DNA of 64,000 bases from Pseudomonadota bacterium (GTDB taxonomy: Bacteria; Pseudomonadota; Gammaproteobacteria; Burkholderiales; Burkholderiaceae_C), in contig JAJZVU010000012.1 in the NCBI GenBank assembly GCA_021845505.1, positions 1-64,000 of the forward strand, read 5' to 3'. The stretch's first letter is position 1, and each line of letters begins with the position of its first letter. The position numbers and the translations under genes are program-made. The notes under the pieces were generated by a model, which did not search any database, was not told the DNA's origin, and was given only the letters and a program-made list of their open reading frames with translations. Of the stretch, positions 1,219-8,715 are shown one piece after another.

Positions 1219-1410
1219 TCAACCCTGCAGGGTTTCGTCCAGGCCCTCTCCGGGCTTCCACGGGCGCCCGAGGCGCGCCTCGATGTACTCGCGGATCAGC
1301 CGCCGCACGACCTGCGATGGGGTCTGGTCCTCCAGCGCGCACAAATGCTCGAACACGGCCTTCTTGCGCGGATCGATCAGCACGGTCAGGCGGGTGGTGC
1401 GTTGTTCCAT
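1219..1410 (-). CDS. Ribbon-helix-helix (CopG/Arc-like) transcriptional regulator
   Basis: A 63-residue protein. Residues 5-12 (TTRLTVLI) fit the DNA-contacting beta strand of ribbon-helix-helix repressors, and two helices follow (about 14-26 and 30-45, with the turn at DQTPSQV). There is no C-terminal sensor domain such as the ACT domain of NikR, so it would have to sense a ligand through its small body or act with a partner. It is transcribed away from the hyf-like operon and its start lies 77 bp from hyfB, with a 31-bp dyad between the two. By position it is the likely autoregulator and operon regulator; the target and signal are inferred. It converges on dusA with a 32-bp gap that holds a short GC hairpin. 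Confidence 0.8.
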   Translation of the reverse strand: MEQRTTRLTVLIDPRKKAVFEHLCALEDQTPSQVVRRLIREYIEARLGRPWKPGEGLDETLQG

Positions 1411-1441: not shown

Positions 1442-1472
1442 CATGGCATGTGCATACTATGCGAATTCCATG
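1442..1472. promoter_or_regulatory. 31-bp dyad, candidate operator of the Hyf-like operon and RHH gene
   Basis: An imperfect inverted repeat centred on C1457: 12 of 15 symmetric positions pair, with a perfect core GCATA-C-TATGC and outer arms CATGG/CCATG. It lies in the 76-bp gap between the divergent RHH regulator and hyfB. It overlaps a possible hyfB promoter (TTGCAT at 1433-1438, TACTAT at 1455-1460, 16-bp spacer), so a bound repressor would cover the -10. Dyads of this kind are the usual targets of RHH repressors. Function is inferred from position. Confidence 0.6.
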
Positions 1473-1486
1473 AGAAAGCAAAACCC

Positions 1487-3490
1487 ATGGACCCGAGGCA
1501 GCTGATCCTCCTGGCGCTGGCCATGGTGGGGACCTGGCTGGCTCTCGGGCTGGCGGGGCTGGCGCGGCCGCGAGCCACCCGCTGGATCGCCCATCGCCTG
1601 TTTCCGCTGGGGGCCTTGGCCTGCCTGGGCATCGCCGGCGTCGGCCTGGGTGCGCTGCTCGGGCCCGCGGGCGACCTGGTGCTGCCGCTCGGGCTGCCCG
1701 GCCTGCCGATGCACCTGCACATCGATGCGCTGAGCGGCTTTTTCCTGCTGCTGCTGGGGTCCAGCAGCGCCGGCACCTCGCTGTTCGCCGCCGGTTACTT
1801 TCGCGCCGGCGAAGGCACGGCTCCCGGGCTGCTGGGCATGCAGTACCACCTGTTCCTGGCCGCGATGGTCATGGTGATGCTGGCCGCCGACGCCTACACC
1901 TTCATGCTGGCCTGGGAGGTGATGGCGCTGTCGTCGTATTTCCTGGTGCTCAGCCAGCATCGCCTGCCGGAGATCCGCGCCGCCGGGTTCCTCTACCTGC
2001 TGCTGGCGCACCTCGGAGCGATCGCGCTGCTGCTGTGCTTCGGGGTGATGATGCAAGGCGGCGAGCCCGGGCTGACCTTCGCCGCGATGCGCGCGGCGCA
2101 TTTCAGCGTGGCCTGGGCCAGCCTGGGATTCGGGCTGGCCACCCTGGGCTTCGGCGCAAAGGCCGGCCTGGTTCCGTTGCATGTCTGGCTGCCCGAGGCC
2201 CACCCGGCCGCTCCGTCACCGGTTTCGGCGCTGATGAGCGGGGTGATGCTCAAGACCGCGCTGTACGGCATGTTGCGCGTCAGCCTGGACCTGCTGCACG
2301 CCCCGGCGTGGTGGTGGGGGCTGCCGCTGCTGGGACTCGGGCTGTTCGGCGCGCTGTACGGGGTGTTGTTCGCCGCGGTGCAAAACGACATGAAGCGCCT
2401 GTTGGCGTATTCGTCGATCGAGAACATCGGCATCGCCTTTGCCGCCCTCGGGCTGGCGCTGGTGTTCCACGGCACCGGGATGGCGGTGCTGGCGGCGCTG
2501 GCGCTGGCGGCCATGCTCTACCACTCGCTGAACCACGCGTTTTTCAAGAGCCTGCTGTTCTGTGCGACCGGCTCGGTGCTCCACGCGACCCGCAGCCGCA
2601 ACCTGGGCAGCCTGGGCGGCTTGCTGCGGCGCATGCCCTGGGTCGGCTGGACCGCGCTGGTGGGCACGCTGGCGATCGCCGGGCTGCCCCCTCTCAACGG
2701 TTTTGTCTCGGAATGGCTGCTGCTGCAGGCCTTCCTGTTCAGCCCGCGGCTTCCCCATCCGTTCTTCAACCTGCTGATCCCCCTCGGTGCCGCGCTGCTG
2801 GTGTTGACCGCGGCGCTGGCCGGCTATGTGATGGTCAAGTTCTACGGGGTGATCTTCCTCGGCCGCCATCGGGAGCCGGGGCTGGAACATGCGCACGACT
2901 GCGGTCGCTTCGAGCGGGTGGCGCTGGGCTGGTTCGCGCTCGCCTGCGTGCTGCTGGGCCTGCTGCCGGGGCTGGTGCTGCGGCTGATCGACCCGGTGGA
3001 CACGCTGCTGCTCGGCCAGGGGCTGGGCCGGCCGGGCGATTGGCTGCGGCTGGTTCCGCAGGACGCCGCGCAGGCGGCCTACGACCCGCTGGTGCTGGTC
3101 GCTGTGGTGGCCCCGGTGGTGCTGCTGACCGCATGGATCACCCACCGGCTGTACACCGGGCGTACCCGCCGCGCCGACCCCTGGGATTGCGGCCATGCCG
3201 ATCCCAGCCCGCGGCTGCAGGACACCGCCGAGGGCTTCGGGCAGCCGGTGCGGCGGCTGTTCGCGCCGTTCTTCCTCAGCCGTGTCGAACTGCCGTCGCC
3301 CGCCGACGAGGCGCCGCGCTACCGGGTGCTGATCGCCGACCGCTTGTACGCCCAGGTCTACCAGCCCGCGGCCGACGCGGTGCTGTGGCTGGCGCAGCAG
3401 GTGGGCAAGTTGCAGCACGGCCGCATTTCCATCTACCTGCTCTACAGCTTCGTCACGCTGCTGGTGATGCTGATGGTGGTGCTGCGATGA
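1487..3490 (+). CDS. hyfB: Hydrogenase-4/Ehr-type membrane subunit B (NuoL/M antiporter-like)
   Basis: A 667-residue polytopic membrane protein of the proton-translocating antiporter family, close to E. coli HyfB (about 670 residues). The channel residues expected in NuoL/M proteins are present: Glu in AWEVMALSSYFLVLS and Lys in GFGAKAGLVPLHVWLPEAH, plus LLAYSSIENIG and NHAFFKSLLF. A C-terminal cytoplasmic or amphipathic section ends in a last hydrophobic helix. ATG 1487 is chosen because it gives the family N-terminus; the reading frame is open further upstream across the dyad. First gene of a six-gene operon; its stop overlaps the hyfC start (ATGA). It probably pumps ions for the complex. 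Confidence 0.9.
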   Translation: MDPRQLILLALAMVGTWLALGLAGLARPRATRWIAHRLFPLGALACLGIAGVGLGALLGPAGDLVLPLGLPGLPMHLHIDALSGFFLLLLGSSSAGTSLFAAGYFRAGEGTAPGLLGMQYHLFLAAMVMVMLAADAYTFMLAWEVMALSSYFLVLSQHRLPEIRAAGFLYLLLAHLGAIALLLCFGVMMQGGEPGLTFAAMRAAHFSVAWASLGFGLATLGFGAKAGLVPLHVWLPEAHPAAPSPVSALMSGVMLKTALYGMLRVSLDLLHAPAWWWGLPLLGLGLFGALYGVLFAAVQNDMKRLLAYSSIENIGIAFAALGLALVFHGTGMAVLAALALAAMLYHSLNHAFFKSLLFCATGSVLHATRSRNLGSLGGLLRRMPWVGWTALVGTLAIAGLPPLNGFVSEWLLLQAFLFSPRLPHPFFNLLIPLGAALLVLTAALAGYVMVKFYGVIFLGRHREPGLEHAHDCGRFERVALGWFALACVLLGLLPGLVLRLIDPVDTLLLGQGLGRPGDWLRLVPQDAAQAAYDPLVLVAVVAPVVLLTAWITHRLYTGRTRRADPWDCGHADPSPRLQDTAEGFGQPVRRLFAPFFLSRVELPSPADEAPRYRVLIADRLYAQVYQPAADAVLWLAQQVGKLQHGRISIYLLYSFVTLLVMLMVVLR

Positions 3491-4470
3491 GTCGACTGCC
3501 CGCGCTTCCCGGAATCGCGCTCAGCTGGTCCGGGCTTTTCACCCAGTGCATCGTGGTGCTGCTTTCGGTGGCACTGGCGCCGTTGTTCTCCGGCTGGCTG
3601 GCGCAGTGCCGGGCCTGGCTGAGCAATCGCAGCGCGCCGCCGCTGTGGCAGCCCTACCTGCGACTGCGCAAGCTGTTCGCCAAGGACGCGGTGCTGGCCC
3701 ACGATGCCTCGCCGCTGTTCCGGGCCGTGCCCTATCTGCAGTTCGGCCTGATGGTCGCCGCGGCGGCCATCATCCCGTCGCTGTCGACCGACCTGCCGCT
3801 GGCTGCGGTGGCCGACGCCATCGCGCTGGTCGGATGCTTCGCGCTGGCGCGGGTGTTCATCGCGCTGGCCGGGATGGACATCGGGACGGCCTTCGGAAGC
3901 ATGGGGTCGCGGCGCGAAATGCTCGTCGGCTTCCTGGCCGAGCCGGCGCTGCTGATGGTGCTGTTCACCTCCTCCCTGGTGTCGGGCAGCACGCTGCTGC
4001 CCACCATCGCCGAGGCGCTGCGCCGGCAGTCGCTGGCCATCCACCCGGGGCTGGATTTCGCCGCGGTGGCCTTCGTCATGGTGCTGCTGGCCGAGAACGC
4101 GCGCATTCCGGTCGACAACCCGAGCACCCACCTCGAGCTCACGATGATCCACGAGGCGATGCTGCTGGAGTACTCGGCGCGCCACCTGGCGCTGGTGGAA
4201 TGGGCCAACAGCCTGAAGCTGTTCAACTACGCCTGCATCGGCTTCGCGCTGTTCCTGCCGTGGGGGCTGGCCGGCCATGCCGACGGCCTGCTGTGGCTGC
4301 TGCCCGCGCTGCCGCCGCTGCTGCTCAAGCTCGCGCTGGCCGGCATGGGCATCGCGCTGCTGGAGACCCTCAGCGCCAAGCTGCGCATCTTTCGCGTTCC
4401 CGAGTTCCTCGCCAGCGCCTTCCTGCTGGCGGTGATCGGGCTGCTGGTCGGCCTGATGCTGGAGCACTGA
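3487..4470 (+). CDS. hyfC: Hydrogenase-4/Ehr-type membrane anchor subunit C (NuoH/HycD-like)
   Basis: A 327-residue integral membrane protein of the NuoH/HycD/EchB family, which anchors the hydrophilic arm and carries the quinone-cavity-like region. Diagnostic are AENARIPVDNPSTHLELTM (about 203-221) followed by IHEAMLLEYSARHLALVEW, which supply the acidic residues on the membrane interface loop. About eight hydrophobic segments are seen. It begins inside the hyfB stop codon (ATGA), showing translational coupling, and is followed one base later by GTG of hyfE. Assignment to subfamily is confident. Confidence 0.92.
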   Translation: MSRLPALPGIALSWSGLFTQCIVVLLSVALAPLFSGWLAQCRAWLSNRSAPPLWQPYLRLRKLFAKDAVLAHDASPLFRAVPYLQFGLMVAAAAIIPSLSTDLPLAAVADAIALVGCFALARVFIALAGMDIGTAFGSMGSRREMLVGFLAEPALLMVLFTSSLVSGSTLLPTIAEALRRQSLAIHPGLDFAAVAFVMVLLAENARIPVDNPSTHLELTMIHEAMLLEYSARHLALVEWANSLKLFNYACIGFALFLPWGLAGHADGLLWLLPALPPLLLKLALAGMGIALLETLSAKLRIFRVPEFLASAFLLAVIGLLVGLMLEH

Positions 4471-4471
4471 C

Positions 4472-5131
4472 GTGGCCCCGCTGTCGACCCAGCTGATCCA
4501 TCTGTGCGCGGCGCTGCTGCTGCTGCTGGCCTTCGCGATGCTGGCGCAGCGCCGGGTGGCCAACCTGGTCGGGCTGTTCGCCGCCCAGGGCCTGATCCTC
4601 GCCGCCTGCGCCGCCATCGTCGCGGCCAGCACCGGGCAGACCGAGCTCTACGAGTCGGCCGCGCTGACCCTGCTGCTCAAGGTGCTGCTGCTGCCGTGGG
4701 TGCTGCGGCTGCTCATCCGCAGGCTGGACGCCCAATGGGATACCGAGACCCTGCTGCGCATCCCCACGATGCAGATCGTGGGCATCGTGCTGGTGATGTT
4801 CGCCTTCGTGCTGGCGCAGCCGATCTCCCGCTACGCCGGCGCGCTCACGCGGGGCACGCTGGGAATCGCGCTGGCCGTGGTGTTCCTCGCGCTGCTGATG
4901 ATGATCGTGCGGCGCACCGCGATCGCCCAGGTGATCGGCTTCCTGGCGATGGAAAACGGCTTGCTGTTCGCCGCCACCAGCGCGACCTACGGCATGCCGA
5001 TGGTGGTCGAGCTGGGGATCGGGCTGGACGTGCTGGTCGGGGTCTTCGTGCTGGGCATCTTCTTCTTCCAGATCCGCGAGCAGTTCGACAGCCTCGAACT
5101 GCGCCATCTGGAAAACCTCAAGGACGAGTGA
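4472..5131 (+). CDS. hyfE: Hydrogenase-4/Ehr-type membrane subunit E (NuoK-like)
   Basis: A 219-residue membrane protein matching HyfE of hydrogenase-4 (about 216 residues). Its C-terminal half resembles NuoK, with the buried glutamates in FLAMENGLLFAAT and MVVELGIGLDVLVG, and it ends with a charged tail containing LRHLENLKDE. The start is GTG at 4472, one base after the hyfC stop; the stop abuts the GTG of hyfF. HyfE is absent from hydrogenase-3, so its presence places the cluster with the hydrogenase-4/Ehr lineage rather than with Hyc. Confidence 0.9.
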   Translation: MAPLSTQLIHLCAALLLLLAFAMLAQRRVANLVGLFAAQGLILAACAAIVAASTGQTELYESAALTLLLKVLLLPWVLRLLIRRLDAQWDTETLLRIPTMQIVGIVLVMFAFVLAQPISRYAGALTRGTLGIALAVVFLALLMMIVRRTAIAQVIGFLAMENGLLFAATSATYGMPMVVELGIGLDVLVGVFVLGIFFFQIREQFDSLELRHLENLKDE

Positions 5132-6592
5132 GTGGAACTGGCCGCCGTTCTGCTGCTGCCGCTGCTGGCCTCGGGGCTGCTGGCGCTGTTCGGCCACGGC
5201 CGGCAGGCGCCGCACCTGAACCTGGCTGCGAGCGCGGCGACTTTCGTCGCCAGTTGCGCGCTGACCCTGCGGGTGATCTCCGGCGGGCCGTTCCAGGCCT
5301 TCGACAGCCAGTTCTTCATCGACCCCTTCAATGTGTTCCTGGTCGTTCTGACGGCCTTCATCGGCATGACCACGGCCGGCTTCTCGCGGCCCTACATGCG
5401 CATCGAGCAGTCCCACGGCCGCGTCGACGCCGCGCGCCTGCGGCTGTATCACAGCATGTACCAGATGTTCATGTTCACCATGCTGCTGGCGCTGACGACC
5501 AACAACATGGGCATGCTGTGGGTGGCGATGGAGGCAGCGACCCTGTCGACCGTGTTGCTGGTGTCGCTGTACCGCACCAAGGCCAGCCTCGAGGCGGCAT
5601 GGAAGTATTTCATCCTGTGCGGCGTCGGAATCGCATTGGCGCTGTTCGGCACCGTGCTGCTCTACCTGGCCGCGGAGCGGGTGCTCGGCGCCACCGGGAT
5701 GAGCGCCCTGCTGTGGACCCGGCTGGACGCGGCGCGCACCCGGCTGCAGCCGGCCATCGTCGGCATCGCCTTCGTGTTCCTGCTGGTCGGCTACGGCACC
5801 AAGGTGGGGCTGGTGCCGCTGCACAGCTGGCTGCCCGATGCCCACGCCGAGGGTCCGACGCCGATCTCCGCGGTGCTGTCCGGACTGCTGCTCAACGTCG
5901 CGCTGTACGCGGTCGTGCGCACCAAGGTGCTGGTCGAGGGCGCGGTGCAGGCGAGCTGGCCGGGCGCGATGCTCATGGCCTTCGGACTGCTGTCGGTGGT
6001 GGTCGCCGCGTTCCTGCTGTGGCGCCAGAGGGATGTCAAGCGGCTGTTCGCCTACTCTTCCATCGAACACATGGGGATCATCACCTTCGCGTTCGGAATG
6101 GGCGGGCCGATCGCCAATTTCGCCGCGCTGCTGCACATGACCGGGCACGCGCTGACCAAGAGCGCGATCTTCTACAGCACCGGCCACGCCTCGCAGAAGG
6201 CCGACAGCCAGCGCATCGATGCGATCGAAGGCCTGCTCGAGCGTTCGCCGGCGCTGGGCTGGGCGCTGATGCTGGGGGCGCTTTCGATCATCGGCATGCC
6301 GCCGTTCGGGGTGTTCGCCAGCGAGTTCCTGATCCTCACCCAGGCCATGCAGGCCCAGCCCTGGGCGACGCCCATCCTGCTGCTGGCGCTGGGGGTGGCC
6401 TTCGGCGCGATCTTCCTGCGCGTGCAGGGCATGGTGTTCGGCGCCGGCCGCCTGCGCCGGCTGCCGCACCAGCCCTGGATGCTGCCGGCCTTCGTGCACA
6501 TGGGGCTGGTGCTGCTGCTGGGCCTGTGGATCCCGGGGTTCCTGGCTTCGTGGTGGCACCTGGCGGCGGGCATGATCGGAGGCGGACCATGA
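5132..6592 (+). CDS. hyfF: Hydrogenase-4/Ehr-type membrane subunit F (NuoN/M antiporter-like)
   Basis: A 486-residue polytopic antiporter-like subunit, the second in this operon. Conserved channel features are Glu in LWVAMEAATLSTVLLVS, Lys in GYGTKVGLVPLHSWLPDAH, the Pro-rich break GPTPISAVLSG, and LFAYSSIEHMGI. The start is GTG directly after the hyfE stop. The order B-C-E-F-G-I follows E. coli hyf but without hyfA, hyfD and hyfH. The retained Glu and Lys argue that ion pumping is kept. The stop overlaps the start of a 25-codon frame leading into hyfG. Confidence 0.9.
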   Translation: MELAAVLLLPLLASGLLALFGHGRQAPHLNLAASAATFVASCALTLRVISGGPFQAFDSQFFIDPFNVFLVVLTAFIGMTTAGFSRPYMRIEQSHGRVDAARLRLYHSMYQMFMFTMLLALTTNNMGMLWVAMEAATLSTVLLVSLYRTKASLEAAWKYFILCGVGIALALFGTVLLYLAAERVLGATGMSALLWTRLDAARTRLQPAIVGIAFVFLLVGYGTKVGLVPLHSWLPDAHAEGPTPISAVLSGLLLNVALYAVVRTKVLVEGAVQASWPGAMLMAFGLLSVVVAAFLLWRQRDVKRLFAYSSIEHMGIITFAFGMGGPIANFAALLHMTGHALTKSAIFYSTGHASQKADSQRIDAIEGLLERSPALGWALMLGALSIIGMPPFGVFASEFLILTQAMQAQPWATPILLLALGVAFGAIFLRVQGMVFGAGRLRRLPHQPWMLPAFVHMGLVLLLGLWIPGFLASWWHLAAGMIGGGP

Positions 6593-6666
6593 GCCGCTAC
6601 GGCCGATCCCCAGGCATGCTCTGCCTTCCCGGGAGGGCGGGCGCCGCGACGGGGGACGAGCGATGA
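6589..6666 (+). CDS. 25-codon open frame bridging hyfF and hyfG
   Basis: ATG at 6589 overlaps the hyfF stop (ATGA), and its TGA at 6664-6666 overlaps the hyfG ATG (again ATGA), so it fills the 70-base gap exactly. The predicted peptide begins MSRYGRSPGM and contains no motif I recognise. It may be a coupling leader that carries ribosomes from hyfF to hyfG, or chance. GC-rich DNA holds many short open frames, so confidence is low. Confidence 0.22.
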   Translation: MSRYGRSPGMLCLPGRAGAATGDER

Positions 6667-8186
6667 GCGAGCGGGGTGGCGACCTGCCGCGGGTGTGCGC
6701 CGGCTGCTGGCCGCTGCGGCTGCAGCGGGTCGACGCGCTGGGCTGGCGCGCGCTGGCGCAGCAACTGCACGACCGCGGCGCGCTGCTGCTGAGCCTGTGG
6801 GGGCAGGCGCAGGGGGCGGGAAGCCGCATCTGGGGTTGCTGGCTGGCCGACGGGCAGCTCGTGCTCGGTTGCCTGGACCTGCCACCCGGGGTCGAGCATT
6901 ACCCGGGGCTGCAGGACCTGTTTCCCGTGGCCGGGCGGCTGCAGCGCGCGCTGCGCGACCTGCTGGGGCCGCAGGCCCAGGGCATGGATGCGCGCCCCTG
7001 GCTGCGCCACGACGCGTGGACGGCCGACTGGCACCCGCTGCGCGACACCACGCCGCCCAGCCCGGGCCCCGGCGAGCGCTACGCCTTTGTCGAGGTCGAC
7101 GGGGTCGGCGTGCACGAAATCGCCGTCGGGCCGGTGCACGCCGGGATCATCGAGCCGGGCCAGTTCCGCTTTTCGGTCGTCGGGGAAAAGGTGTTGCGGC
7201 TCGAGCAGCGCCTGGGGTTCACCCACAAGGGCGTGGCGCTGCGCTTCCAGCAACTCGACCTGGAGGGCGGGTTGCGGCTGGCCGCACGCCTGAGCGGCGA
7301 CAGCGCGGCGGCCTTCGGCTGGGCCTACTGCATGGCGCTGGAGGCGCTGGCCGACCTGCAGCCGCCGCCGCGGGCGCTGCACCTGCGGGCGCTGCTGCTC
7401 GAGCGCGAGCGCGTGGCCAACCACCTGGGCGACCTGGGGGCCATCGCCAACGACGCCGGTCTGGCCTTCGCGCTGGCCCAGTTCTCGCGCCTGAAGGAAG
7501 ACCTGCTGCGGCTGAACGCCGAGCTGTTCGGCGCGCGCTACCCGATGGACGCGCTGCGGGTCGGCGGCGTTGCCCGCGACCTCGATGCGGCCGGCCTGCA
7601 CGCGCTGCGCCAGCAGGGCAGGGTGCTGCGCGAACAGGCCTTGCGCCTGCGCGACATACTCGACGAGCACGAGGGGCTGCACGACCGGCTGCGCGGCACC
7701 GGGCGCGTCGCCCCGGAGTTGGCGCGGCGCCTGGGGTTGCTCGGGCTGGCCGGGCGCGCCAGCGGACAGCCGCTGGACCTGCGCGCGCTGGGCTGCTGGG
7801 CGCCCTACGACCGGCTGCCGATGCAGCCTGCGCTCGAGCAGGACGGGGACGTCGCGGCCCGCTTCGCGGTGCGCTACCACGAACTGCTGGCTTCGCTTCA
7901 GGGTTGTCGCGACCTGATCGACAGCCTGCCGGCAGGCGAGGTGCTCGGCGCGCTGCCGCGGCCGCCGCGGGCAGGACTGGGGATCGGGCTGGTCGAGGGC
8001 TGGCGCGGTCCGGTGCTGGTGGCGCTGCAGCTCGGCGAAGACGGGCGCATCGTGCGCTGCCATGCCCACGACCCGTCGTGGCAGAACTGGCAGGCGCTGG
8101 AGTGGGCGGTGATCCAGGACATCGTCGCCGACTTCCCGTTGATCAACAAGTCCTTCAACCTGTCCTACTCGGGACACGACGGCTGA
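6663..8186 (+). CDS. hyfG: Ehr-type large subunit (HyfG/HycE/NuoD-like) lacking [NiFe] cysteines
   Basis: A 507-residue protein with a NuoC-like N-terminal domain (about 1-135) fused to a NuoD/HycE-like domain (about 140-507), the fusion typical of HyfG. Family landmarks are VGPVHAGIIEPGQFRF (155-170), FTHKGVALRFQ (186-196), LLLERERVANHLGDLGA, and the C-terminal ALEWAVIQDIVADFPLINKS. In true [NiFe] hydrogenases the L1 site reads ERxCGxC; here the same place (about 209-220) reads RLSGDSAAAFGW with no cysteine. The C-terminal DPCxxC is replaced by the end FNLSYSGHDG. No metal site of the hydrogenase kind can form, so hydrogen chemistry is unlikely. It resembles the Ehr group of complexes. The actual substrate is unknown. 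Confidence 0.88.
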   Translation: MSERGGDLPRVCAGCWPLRLQRVDALGWRALAQQLHDRGALLLSLWGQAQGAGSRIWGCWLADGQLVLGCLDLPPGVEHYPGLQDLFPVAGRLQRALRDLLGPQAQGMDARPWLRHDAWTADWHPLRDTTPPSPGPGERYAFVEVDGVGVHEIAVGPVHAGIIEPGQFRFSVVGEKVLRLEQRLGFTHKGVALRFQQLDLEGGLRLAARLSGDSAAAFGWAYCMALEALADLQPPPRALHLRALLLERERVANHLGDLGAIANDAGLAFALAQFSRLKEDLLRLNAELFGARYPMDALRVGGVARDLDAAGLHALRQQGRVLREQALRLRDILDEHEGLHDRLRGTGRVAPELARRLGLLGLAGRASGQPLDLRALGCWAPYDRLPMQPALEQDGDVAARFAVRYHELLASLQGCRDLIDSLPAGEVLGALPRPPRAGLGIGLVEGWRGPVLVALQLGEDGRIVRCHAHDPSWQNWQALEWAVIQDIVADFPLINKSFNLSYSGHDG

Positions 8187-8196
8187 GGCGCGCGCC

Positions 8197-8715
8197 ATGT
8201 GGCAGACCCTGAAACAGATCGCCCGCGTCGGGCTGATCAGCGAGCCGCCGACCCGCCACAGCGAGCGCTGCAGCGACGGCGACGCGCAGCCGCTGCACGC
8301 CGAGATGGCGCGCCTGCTGGGGCGCGCGCTGGCCGTGCGGGTGGTCGACGCGGGTTCATGCAACGGTTGCGAGCTGGAGATCAACGCGCTGGGCAACCCC
8401 TACTACAACCTGGAGGGCCTGGGCGTGCACCTGGTGGCCAGCCCGCGCCATGCCGACCTGCTGCTGGTCACCGGCCCGGTGAGCCTGCACATGCAGCAGG
8501 CGCTGGAGCGCACCTACGCCGCGATGCCCGAGCCGCGACTGGTGGTCGCGGTCGGCGACTGCGCGCGCGACGGCGGGGTGTTCGGCTGCAGCTACGCCTG
8601 CCGCGGCGGGCTGCGCGGCCTGCTGCCGGTGGATGTCTACGTCGCCGGCTGCCCGCCGACGCCGCGCGACCTGCTGGCCGGCATGCTGCAGGCGGTGCGC
8701 TCGCGCGCCGGCTGA
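8197..8715 (+). CDS. hyfI: Ehr-type small subunit with one [4Fe-4S] cluster (HyfI/HycG/NuoB-like)
   Basis: A 172-residue NuoB/HycG-family protein. Cysteines at about 55 and 58 (SCNGCELE), 122 (VGDCARDGG) and 152 (VAGCPPTP) are the four ligands of the cluster equivalent to N2 of complex I, all present. It therefore keeps electron transfer next to the HyfG site even though the [NiFe] ligands are gone. It lies 10 bp after hyfG and is the last gene of the operon; it converges on mnmH with a 22-bp gap. The electron donor subunits HyfA and HyfH and the Hyp maturation proteins are not encoded nearby. Confidence 0.93.
   Translation: MWQTLKQIARVGLISEPPTRHSERCSDGDAQPLHAEMARLLGRALAVRVVDAGSCNGCELEINALGNPYYNLEGLGVHLVASPRHADLLLVTGPVSLHMQQALERTYAAMPEPRLVVAVGDCARDGGVFGCSYACRGGLRGLLPVDVYVAGCPPTPRDLLAGMLQAVRSRAG

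Follow-up and report, generated by a model that had tools for sequence, protein, structure and literature searches.

The stretch of DNA analysed here (the window, positions 1 to 64,000 of contig JAJZVU010000012.1 in assembly GCA_021845505.1, from a Pseudomonadota bacterium of the Burkholderiaceae_C) carries a six-gene operon, hyfBCEFGI, which spans positions 1448-8715 with all genes on the plus strand. The first gene, hyfB (1448..3490), codes for a NuoL/M-like antiporter-like subunit of 680 aa with a match of 850 bits to NF005086 (hydrogenase 4 subunit B). It is followed by hyfC (3493..4470), coding for a NuoH-like membrane anchor of 325 aa (Pfam NADHdh), by hyfE (4472..5131), coding for a HyfE-like membrane subunit of 219 aa which matched NF008556 with 89 bits, under the curated cut-off of 136, and by hyfF (5132..6592), coding for a NuoM/N-like antiporter-like subunit of 486 aa with 820 bits to NF005045 (hydrogenase 4 subunit F). 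The gene hyfG (6663..8186), an open frame, encodes a NuoC- plus NuoD-like large subunit of 507 aa without the [NiFe] cysteines, and hyfI (8197..8715) encodes a NuoB-like small subunit with one [4Fe-4S] site (C55, C58, C122 and C152). No hyfA, hyfD, hyfH or hyfJ is present in the operon, while the E. coli hyf operon has all four. The gene set and the missing [NiFe] ligands are those of an Ehr (Ech-hydrogenase-related) complex, as a first-pass annotation of the locus had proposed.

The alignment with E. coli HycE placed the four [NiFe] ligands C241, C244, C531 and C534 on S211, S214, S501 and G504 of HyfG, which confirmed the claim of that annotation that all four cysteines have been lost. The former L1 motif (HyfG 209-214; 7287..7304, plus strand) reads RLSGDS in place of RVCGIC in HycE, and in the former DPCxxC tail (HyfG 495-506, NKSFNLSYSGHD; 8145..8180, plus strand) DPCYSC is replaced by NLSYSG. 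The annotation had named two findings that could overturn it, cysteine pairs elsewhere in HyfG at the metal site and a frameshift hiding a CxxC tail after position 8186, and neither was found. The eight cysteines of HyfG (12, 15, 59, 70, 223, 378, 415 and 466) include none at either metal loop, and the sole CxxC, C12-C15, is at the very N-terminal end and thus not within the NuoD-like part. No CxxC tail was detected in the three forward frames of 8100-8300.

Relatives were taken from 200 genomes of the order, from named genome contigs (the best 80 of 574 relatives), from 274 genomes of the class and from plasmids (tblastn), and gave a set of 145 HyfG rows from which L124 (tail out of frame), identical sequences and ten non-Ehr rows had been left out. 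The protein ends one residue past D506 in 145/145 rows, compared with 33 residues in E. coli HycE and HyfG; the frame reading and these uniform ends rule out a hidden frameshift or tail in hyfG. Six residues of the two former metal loops, D213, N495, K496, S497, Y502 and D506, are invariant in all 145 rows, and R209, G212, N499 and G504 are at least 98.6% conserved. More variation is seen where the cysteines were lost, with serine in 85-88% of the rows at three of the positions (S211 86%, S214 85%) and glycine at the fourth. Together, 10 of the 17 residues of the two loops are at least 98% conserved, compared with 64/363 across the NuoD-like part (hypergeometric p 1e-4), and the resulting HyfG signature is G-D-S/T plus NKSxNxSYxGxD. 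Serine as a replacement metal ligand is ruled out as a family rule, the serines at the three former cysteine places being changed in 12-15% of the rows, mostly to Ala, Thr, Cys or Asn. A cysteine from elsewhere taking over the metal site was likewise rejected: of the 47 residues that never change across the 145 rows none is a cysteine, and no rhizobial cysteine is conserved family-wide. A HyfF-HyfG fusion, hinted at by long open frames, was also discarded, the extra stretch not being HyfF-like.

In a 2026 paper on Geobacter, Ehr is described as nonfunctional and drift is expected (PMC13194489); on that view the operon could be a decaying hydrogenase. The six site residues kept in 145/145 rows and whole operons on contigs labelled with four phyla speak against this, as does a dN/dS of 0.066-0.217 in the 25 closest pairs. 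Decay is refuted by this conservation for the clade of the window, the scope of the comparison being one that leaves the Geobacter sequences outside, and we find it scarcely credible as an explanation of the operon. Because of the invariant residues, the uniform ends, the low dN/dS and pump residues that are intact where checked, the metal site is, as judged from the alignments, rebuilt and conserved, not decayed. The picture of an emptied site given in the first-pass annotation thus stands for the absence of [NiFe] ligands and has to be revised for the rest: the site is not merely emptied.

We then compared the other subunits with solved and better-known relatives. In HyfI, C55-x2-C58, C122 and C152 align to the cluster ligands of MbhJ and HycG, so that the [4Fe-4S] ligands are intact as had been noted, and all four are kept in 15 loci. 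HyfB and HyfF both retain the Glu of TM5, the Lys of TM7 and the Glu of TM12 in all 15 loci compared; at TM8, HyfB retains the Lys and HyfF has Asn, like E. coli HyfF. The window complex shares with the complex I core (NuoB, C, D, H, L/M) the superfamily, the pump residues and the position of cluster N2, and differs from it by the CxxC of HyfI, hydrogenase-type and not CC, and by the absence of an NADH or NuoI module; the cell also carries an ordinary nuo locus. The HyfC coupling loop (residues 208-226, DNPSTHLELTMIHEAMLLE; 4114..4170, plus strand) is rebuilt: THLELTMIHE replaces the EAEQEL of E. coli NuoH, HycD and HyfC (EAEQE in MbhM), with a three-residue insertion, and H213 is found in 64/65 rows (one gap) and H220 in 65/65. 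Two solved relatives were found for HyfC, HycD of formate hydrogenlyase (FHL) and MbhM, and the corresponding loop is described as one of three lining the catalytic chamber (PMC7684303). Catalytic site and coupling loop are both altered, by alignment. A similar loop is present in relatives with the order C-E-F-G-I-B (L049, STHIEVYMI; L051, SIHYEIYMI), and is thus not unique to Ehr.

The surroundings of the former metal site are conserved as well. HyfG E164 (7152..7154, plus strand) corresponds in the alignment to 6cfw_L to E21 of MbhL and to HycE E193, in the proton-donating loop, so that the window complex keeps this residue of Pyrococcus MBH while lacking the [NiFe] cysteines of MBH. E164, R448, H254 and E407 (E193, Arg478, H284 and E437 of HycE) are kept in 138/138 Ehr rows, from which we infer that a proton path survives around a site devoid of metal. 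At the place of the canopy Asp529, N499 is Asn in 136/138 rows (98.6% of the 145); this Asp of FHL is said to be strictly conserved, Arg478 being the canopy Arg (PMC9474812).

Pyrococcus MBS, of the same superfamily, offers a precedent in which the proximal cluster itself would reduce sulfane sulfur in the emptied cavity. Like the window complex, MBS is a complex I relative that has lost [NiFe] ligands (PMC7684303), and several carriers of the operon are named Thiomonas, Thiobacillus or Thioalkalivibrio. MBS is described as retaining two of the four cysteines, as having no E21 equivalent and as having a shortened loop which leaves one cluster iron free (PMC7684303). In the window the cluster loop is not shortened, and the HyfI CxxC has hydrogenase spacing, as in MbhJ and HycG, which is the stronger point against such a reaction; the invariance of E164 is the weaker one, given that the loop of E21 in MbsL also contains an acidic residue (PMC9474812). 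An MBS-like reaction is therefore, to our judgement, highly improbable.

The comparison of gene sets and the HyfG tree point to two published groups of complexes. The Geobacter sulfurreducens cluster GSU0739-0745 and the Nitrospirales Ehr are described with EhrS, EhrL, NuoL-like and HyfE-like subunits and without [NiFe] ligands (PMC7894505, PMC12342949, PMC10284858), like the window; the Geobacter cluster, compared by its description and not by its residues, differs in having genes named ehrA-1 and ehrA-2. Ehr is also treated in PMC6349859, PMC13194489, PMC7894505 and PMC8691401. The window HyfG groups in the tree with members from contigs labelled Nitrospirae (L128, L131 and L132), an assignment by contig label in a tree whose rows do not include the published Ehr genes. 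The second group is Hyq, hyqRBCEFGI in Azorhizobium with rhizobial orthologues, which shares with the window the six genes, their order without A, D and H, the HyfG signature and the clade, Azorhizobium being compared by description. The plasmid search retrieved the operon of Rhizobium johnstonii 3841, which we take to be the former R. leguminosarum; its HyfG reads SGDS and CNKSFNCSYSGHDL. Five HyqG from Rhizobium, Bradyrhizobium and Azospirillum nest in the Ehr clade (95/95) and branch with one class member (100/100). The window complex is thus placed by its sequence in a known kind, Ehr, and the rhizobial Hyq "endo-hydrogenase" falls inside the same clade.

The first-pass annotation had stated that such complexes have no assigned reaction, and this is true of work published under the name Ehr (PMC12342949, PMC10284858). 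It is not true of the same complex under the name Hyq, to which a bidirectional H2:ubiquinone reaction was assigned from knock-outs (PMC2650096, PMC2930871, PMC3357923). In a search of the open literature, 'hyq' with 'hydrogenase' was confined to the three Azorhizobium papers plus two unrelated ones, and two of the three, checked for these words, had neither 'Ehr' nor 'Coppi'. A 2012 paper reported that HyqG of eight genera is without both CxxC pairs, and doubted a Ni,Fe site (PMC3357923). The three cysteines reported for Azorhizobium HyqG, Cys-258, -491 and -497 (PMC3357923), match C259, C491 and C497 of R. johnstonii HyfG, and are A262, I494 and L500 in the window; among 140 non-rhizobial rows they are Cys in 30, 31 and 2. 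Since these cysteines are not general, attention shifts to D213, K496 and their neighbours.

The knock-out data are the basis for a hydrogenase needing neither [NiFe] nor Hyp, a reversible H2:quinone oxidoreductase as proposed by the Azorhizobium group, who left the catalytic site open. In nodules the hup hyq double mutant released 27 umol H2 per g per h, compared with about 0.3 in the single mutants (0.32 in the hup mutant) and the wild type (PMC2930871). In cultures at 20 uM O2, H2 evolution was 16 for the hup mutant, 175 for the hyq mutant and 540 for the double mutant, and at less than 1 uM O2 the hup mutant evolved 61,000 pmol versus 14,000 for the hup hyq mutant, with 56,600 for a nifK hup strain (PMC3357923). 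H2 recycling is reported lost when hyq and hup are both deleted, and strains missing the whole 20-gene hup/hyp set are said to recycle H2 still (PMC2930871). The hyq deletion also made diazotrophic growth about one fifth slower, even with added H2 (PMC2650096, PMC2930871, PMC3357923). The nesting of Hyq in the Ehr clade and the kept E164, R448, H254 and E407 count in favour of this reading as well.

Several points weigh on the other side. No chemistry known to us would activate H2 at a site of this kind. At the canopy position, the Asp that is strictly conserved according to PMC9474812 gives way to Asn in nearly all Ehr rows, and the three HyqG cysteines are absent from the window and rare in non-rhizobial rows. 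According to the available accounts, the hyq deletion also took out the regulator hyqR, about 20% of the H2 evolved under microaerobic conditions persists in the double mutant, its source being unknown, and neither a purified enzyme nor a complementation is presented; for Nitrospira moscoviensis, Ehr expression is reported not to rise with H2 (PMC12342949). The H2 genetics are the strongest reason to keep a hydrogenase under consideration, which we nevertheless regard as unlikely. In its most specific form, Ehr/Hyq would be a fourth kind of hydrogenase, a membrane-bound ion-pumping H2:quinone oxidoreductase without [NiFe] or Hyp, with a site made of D213, K496, N495, S497, Y502, E164 and R448 beside the HyfI cluster. 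We consider this very unlikely; if it were true, the window organism could turn over H2 with the operon alone.

Relatives outside the clade bear on how the site arose. A relative at L078:1935-3548, in tandem with an Ehr operon and branching outside the Ehr clade, keeps all four [NiFe] cysteines (RICGVC, ELCYSC), has NKSF and has no C-terminal extension, which suggests that NKS may have arisen before the cysteines were lost. HypD was not found in the L078 genome assembly, whose completeness is unknown, and a search of the 274 class genomes with L078 gave no further four-cysteine relative among the 30 loci read (29 Ehr and one C-E-F-G-I-B-like). In L049, L051 and L167 the cysteines were lost differently (SGVGS/SGIDS, GLTIAGCD); they form a second metal-less group of unsure tree position, with the order C-E-F-G-I-B in L049 and L051.

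We also searched the source genome, which is 99.5% complete, for partners of the complex. HyfG gave two matches, itself and one ordinary NuoD; HyfH gave a single match, 6-7 kb from nuoD and presumably NuoI, and HyfA four matches, all short and weak. HypD had no match in this genome in a search that included positive controls, nor had the Pfam NiFeSe large-subunit family. A group 4 [NiFe] hydrogenase has CxxC pairs at both ends of its large subunit and Hyp maturation genes in its genome; HyfG is without these pairs, and the source genome is without a HypD match. Compared with E. coli formate hydrogenlyase-1 and -2 (Hyc/Hyf), the window is without the [NiFe] cysteines, the C-terminal extension, HyfA, HyfD, HyfH and HyfJ, and its HyfC loop is changed; the linker ferredoxins of formate hydrogenlyase (HycB/HyfA and HycF/HyfH) have no counterpart in the operon. 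The view in the first-pass annotation that electrons still seem to reach the site is upheld for the HyfI cluster site and is less safe for their supply, the operon having no HyfA/HyfH-type ferredoxin subunit and the HyfH match of the genome lying beside nuoD.

A strong HyfG match of the Ehr type was found in 56 of the 200 genomes of the order, a count that includes at least three genomes with partial or split genes and leaves out weaker matches of other type in G004, G139, G177 and G190. The gene order BCEFGI was read in 62 of the 80 named loci, and contig ends truncate 16 of the remaining 18; in L119 and L131 the full order is missing through gene-call gaps or in reality. L037:2430-17323 and L091:4786-19515 each hold a tandem of two complete Ehr operons, which belong to two subgroups of the clade. 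HypD is present in 32/56 Ehr genomes versus 31/144 others, an association weaker within families (p 0.08), and had no match in the remaining 24 Ehr genomes of the order, nor in 7 of 12 genomes reached via the named loci. RuBisCO is present in 37/56 versus 37/144, also weaker within families (p 0.13), 16 genomes with only RuBisCO matches below 236 bits being counted as RuBisCO-free.

The same sample bears on a formate-linked complex (FDH-Ehr), in which a formate dehydrogenase would feed Ehr. This was proposed in PMC6349859, and Geobacter Ehr subunits are reported at higher abundance on formate than under conditions with hydrogen (PMC7894505); the source genome has a match above the TIGR01591 formate dehydrogenase cut-off. 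Formate dehydrogenase is nevertheless not commoner with Ehr (29/56 versus 78/144 genomes), none was found among 30 scanned flank proteins, and the operon has no HyfA/HycB-type linker, which leaves a formate link distinctly unlikely.

Upstream of the operon, the window carries a dus gene (26-1186) and, on the minus strand and divergent from hyfB, a gene for a 63-aa ribbon-helix-helix protein (1219..1410; Pfam RHH_9, PF19839, E 2.3e-22), which was missing from the open reading frame list given with the window. In 19 of 56 named loci with enough sequence an RHH_9 homologue lies upstream of HyfB, at most 1.6 kb away, and 10 of the 17 strong RHH_9 matches (at least 70 bits) in the 200 genomes are within 11 kb of an Ehr hyfG; the protein is probably a dedicated regulator of the operon. 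An RHH-like sequence stands directly before hyfB on the same strand in Cupriavidus metallidurans CH34 (L174, upstream of 3846). The rhizobial operons differ from the window by a helix-turn-helix leader gene, present in 4 of 5 alphaproteobacterial operons with a gene table (Rhizobium, Bradyrhizobium), with none annotated in Azospirillum thermophilum. In Rhizobium loci a DUF4365 gene follows hyqI (L172:11002-12042, also L176 and L179). NifA and sigma-54 sites are reported for Azorhizobium in the accounts of Hyq. FNR or sigma-54 boxes were not enriched in 62 regions upstream of hyfB. In 8 plasmid-borne loci, with an assumed operon start for L174 and L175, no coding-strand sigma-54 site with at most 2 mismatches was found and one lay on the opposite strand, in L177; 2 near-identical Rhizobium loci had a NifA-like palindrome.

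Many flank genes vary between loci, and the recurrences are raw counts to which no genome-wide baseline of proximity to any operon applies, from flank gene calls that are approximate and wrong in part of the loci (some hyf genes were lost to the opposite strand in the 20-locus clustering). A SulP-STAS anion transporter gene was found near the operon in 14 of 104 sources; in 12 it lies within about 2 kb, and in 9 of those 12 it shares the strand of the operon. A spermidine-synthase-like protein (PF01564) recurs in 15, always within 2 kb and in 12 on the same strand, and a methionyl-tRNA synthetase in 19. None of the three was found in the window by the same search. The SulP-STAS gene stands upstream of hyfB in L088, L119, L065, L041, L047 and others, a hint at inorganic carbon or another anion; the PF01564 gene stands after hyfI in L085, L095, L118 and L073, and before hyfB in L079, L083, L091 and L074. 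A strict ferredoxin motif was found in four open reading frames of the 80 loci, one of them HyfI of a second operon in L104. This divergent operon (L104:1305-3558) has a HyfI-like frame of 355 aa with the ferredoxin-type motif CIQCGDCAPACP and a HyfG tail reading CNKSFDLSYCGNDL.

These neighbours bear on another reading, that of a redox-silent transporter of ions whose HyfG and HyfI would serve as structural parts and which may be tied to inorganic carbon or another anion. The lack of a donor subunit and of a metal centre, the intact pump residues, the nearby SulP-STAS genes and the RuBisCO association are in its favour; the HyfI cluster cysteines kept in 15 loci, the kept proton-path residues of HyfG and the absence of a SulP gene from the window are not. 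The SulP neighbours led us to raise this explanation slightly, and it stays unlikely all the same.

Taken together, the complex clearly belongs, as far as sequence can tell, to a class of complex I relatives that are kept by selection, retain the pump residues and have a rebuilt site without [NiFe]. For its reaction we tentatively favour, at less than even confidence, an ion-pumping oxidoreductase that works reversibly between quinone and a soluble carrier of low potential, because of the single cluster, the absence of an encoded donor subunit, and the occurrence of the operon in genera that include lithoautotrophs, N2 fixers and metal reducers. In the six-subunit core the metal site has given way to the conserved polar site. 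The single HyfI cluster would trade electrons with a ferredoxin or flavodoxin, docking directly where NuoI/HyfH would sit, and on its other side with quinone in a putative HyfG/HyfI/HyfC cavity; a quinone link was proposed for Hyq (PMC3357923). The proton could be handled by E164, R448, H254, E407, D213 and K496 of HyfG with H213/H220 of HyfC, and motion of the rebuilt HyfC loop may couple the redox step to ion translocation by HyfB and HyfF. A reduced carrier would then allow energy to be conserved, and with abundant quinol the proton-motive force would drive formation of low-potential reductant, a need which the RuBisCO association fits, with the p of 0.13 within families.

Several observations weigh against this oxidoreductase. 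The quinone residues of complex I are absent by alignment, Nqo4 H38/Y87 corresponding to I163/G212. No recurring electron carrier was found in the flanks (clustering of 20 and 80 loci; Pfam scans of 30 flank proteins, 27 with a family). A ferredoxin:quinone enzyme does not easily explain the Hyq knock-outs, in which hyq alone stops nearly all nitrogenase H2 release in the hup mutant. The SulP neighbours, which slightly lowered our confidence, leave room with the RuBisCO association for a transport role.

About half of the Nitrospirales genomes (PMC12342949) and more than a quarter of those sampled in this order carry a pump-like complex without an agreed job. Its conservation shows that the complex is retained because it is used, and leaves few residues as candidates for the active site. 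Once the Ehr and Hyq literatures are read together, there are deletion strains, expression data and an H2 phenotype to draw on. Either the H2 data reflect an indirect effect, or else biology has another way to handle H2, and both are testable.

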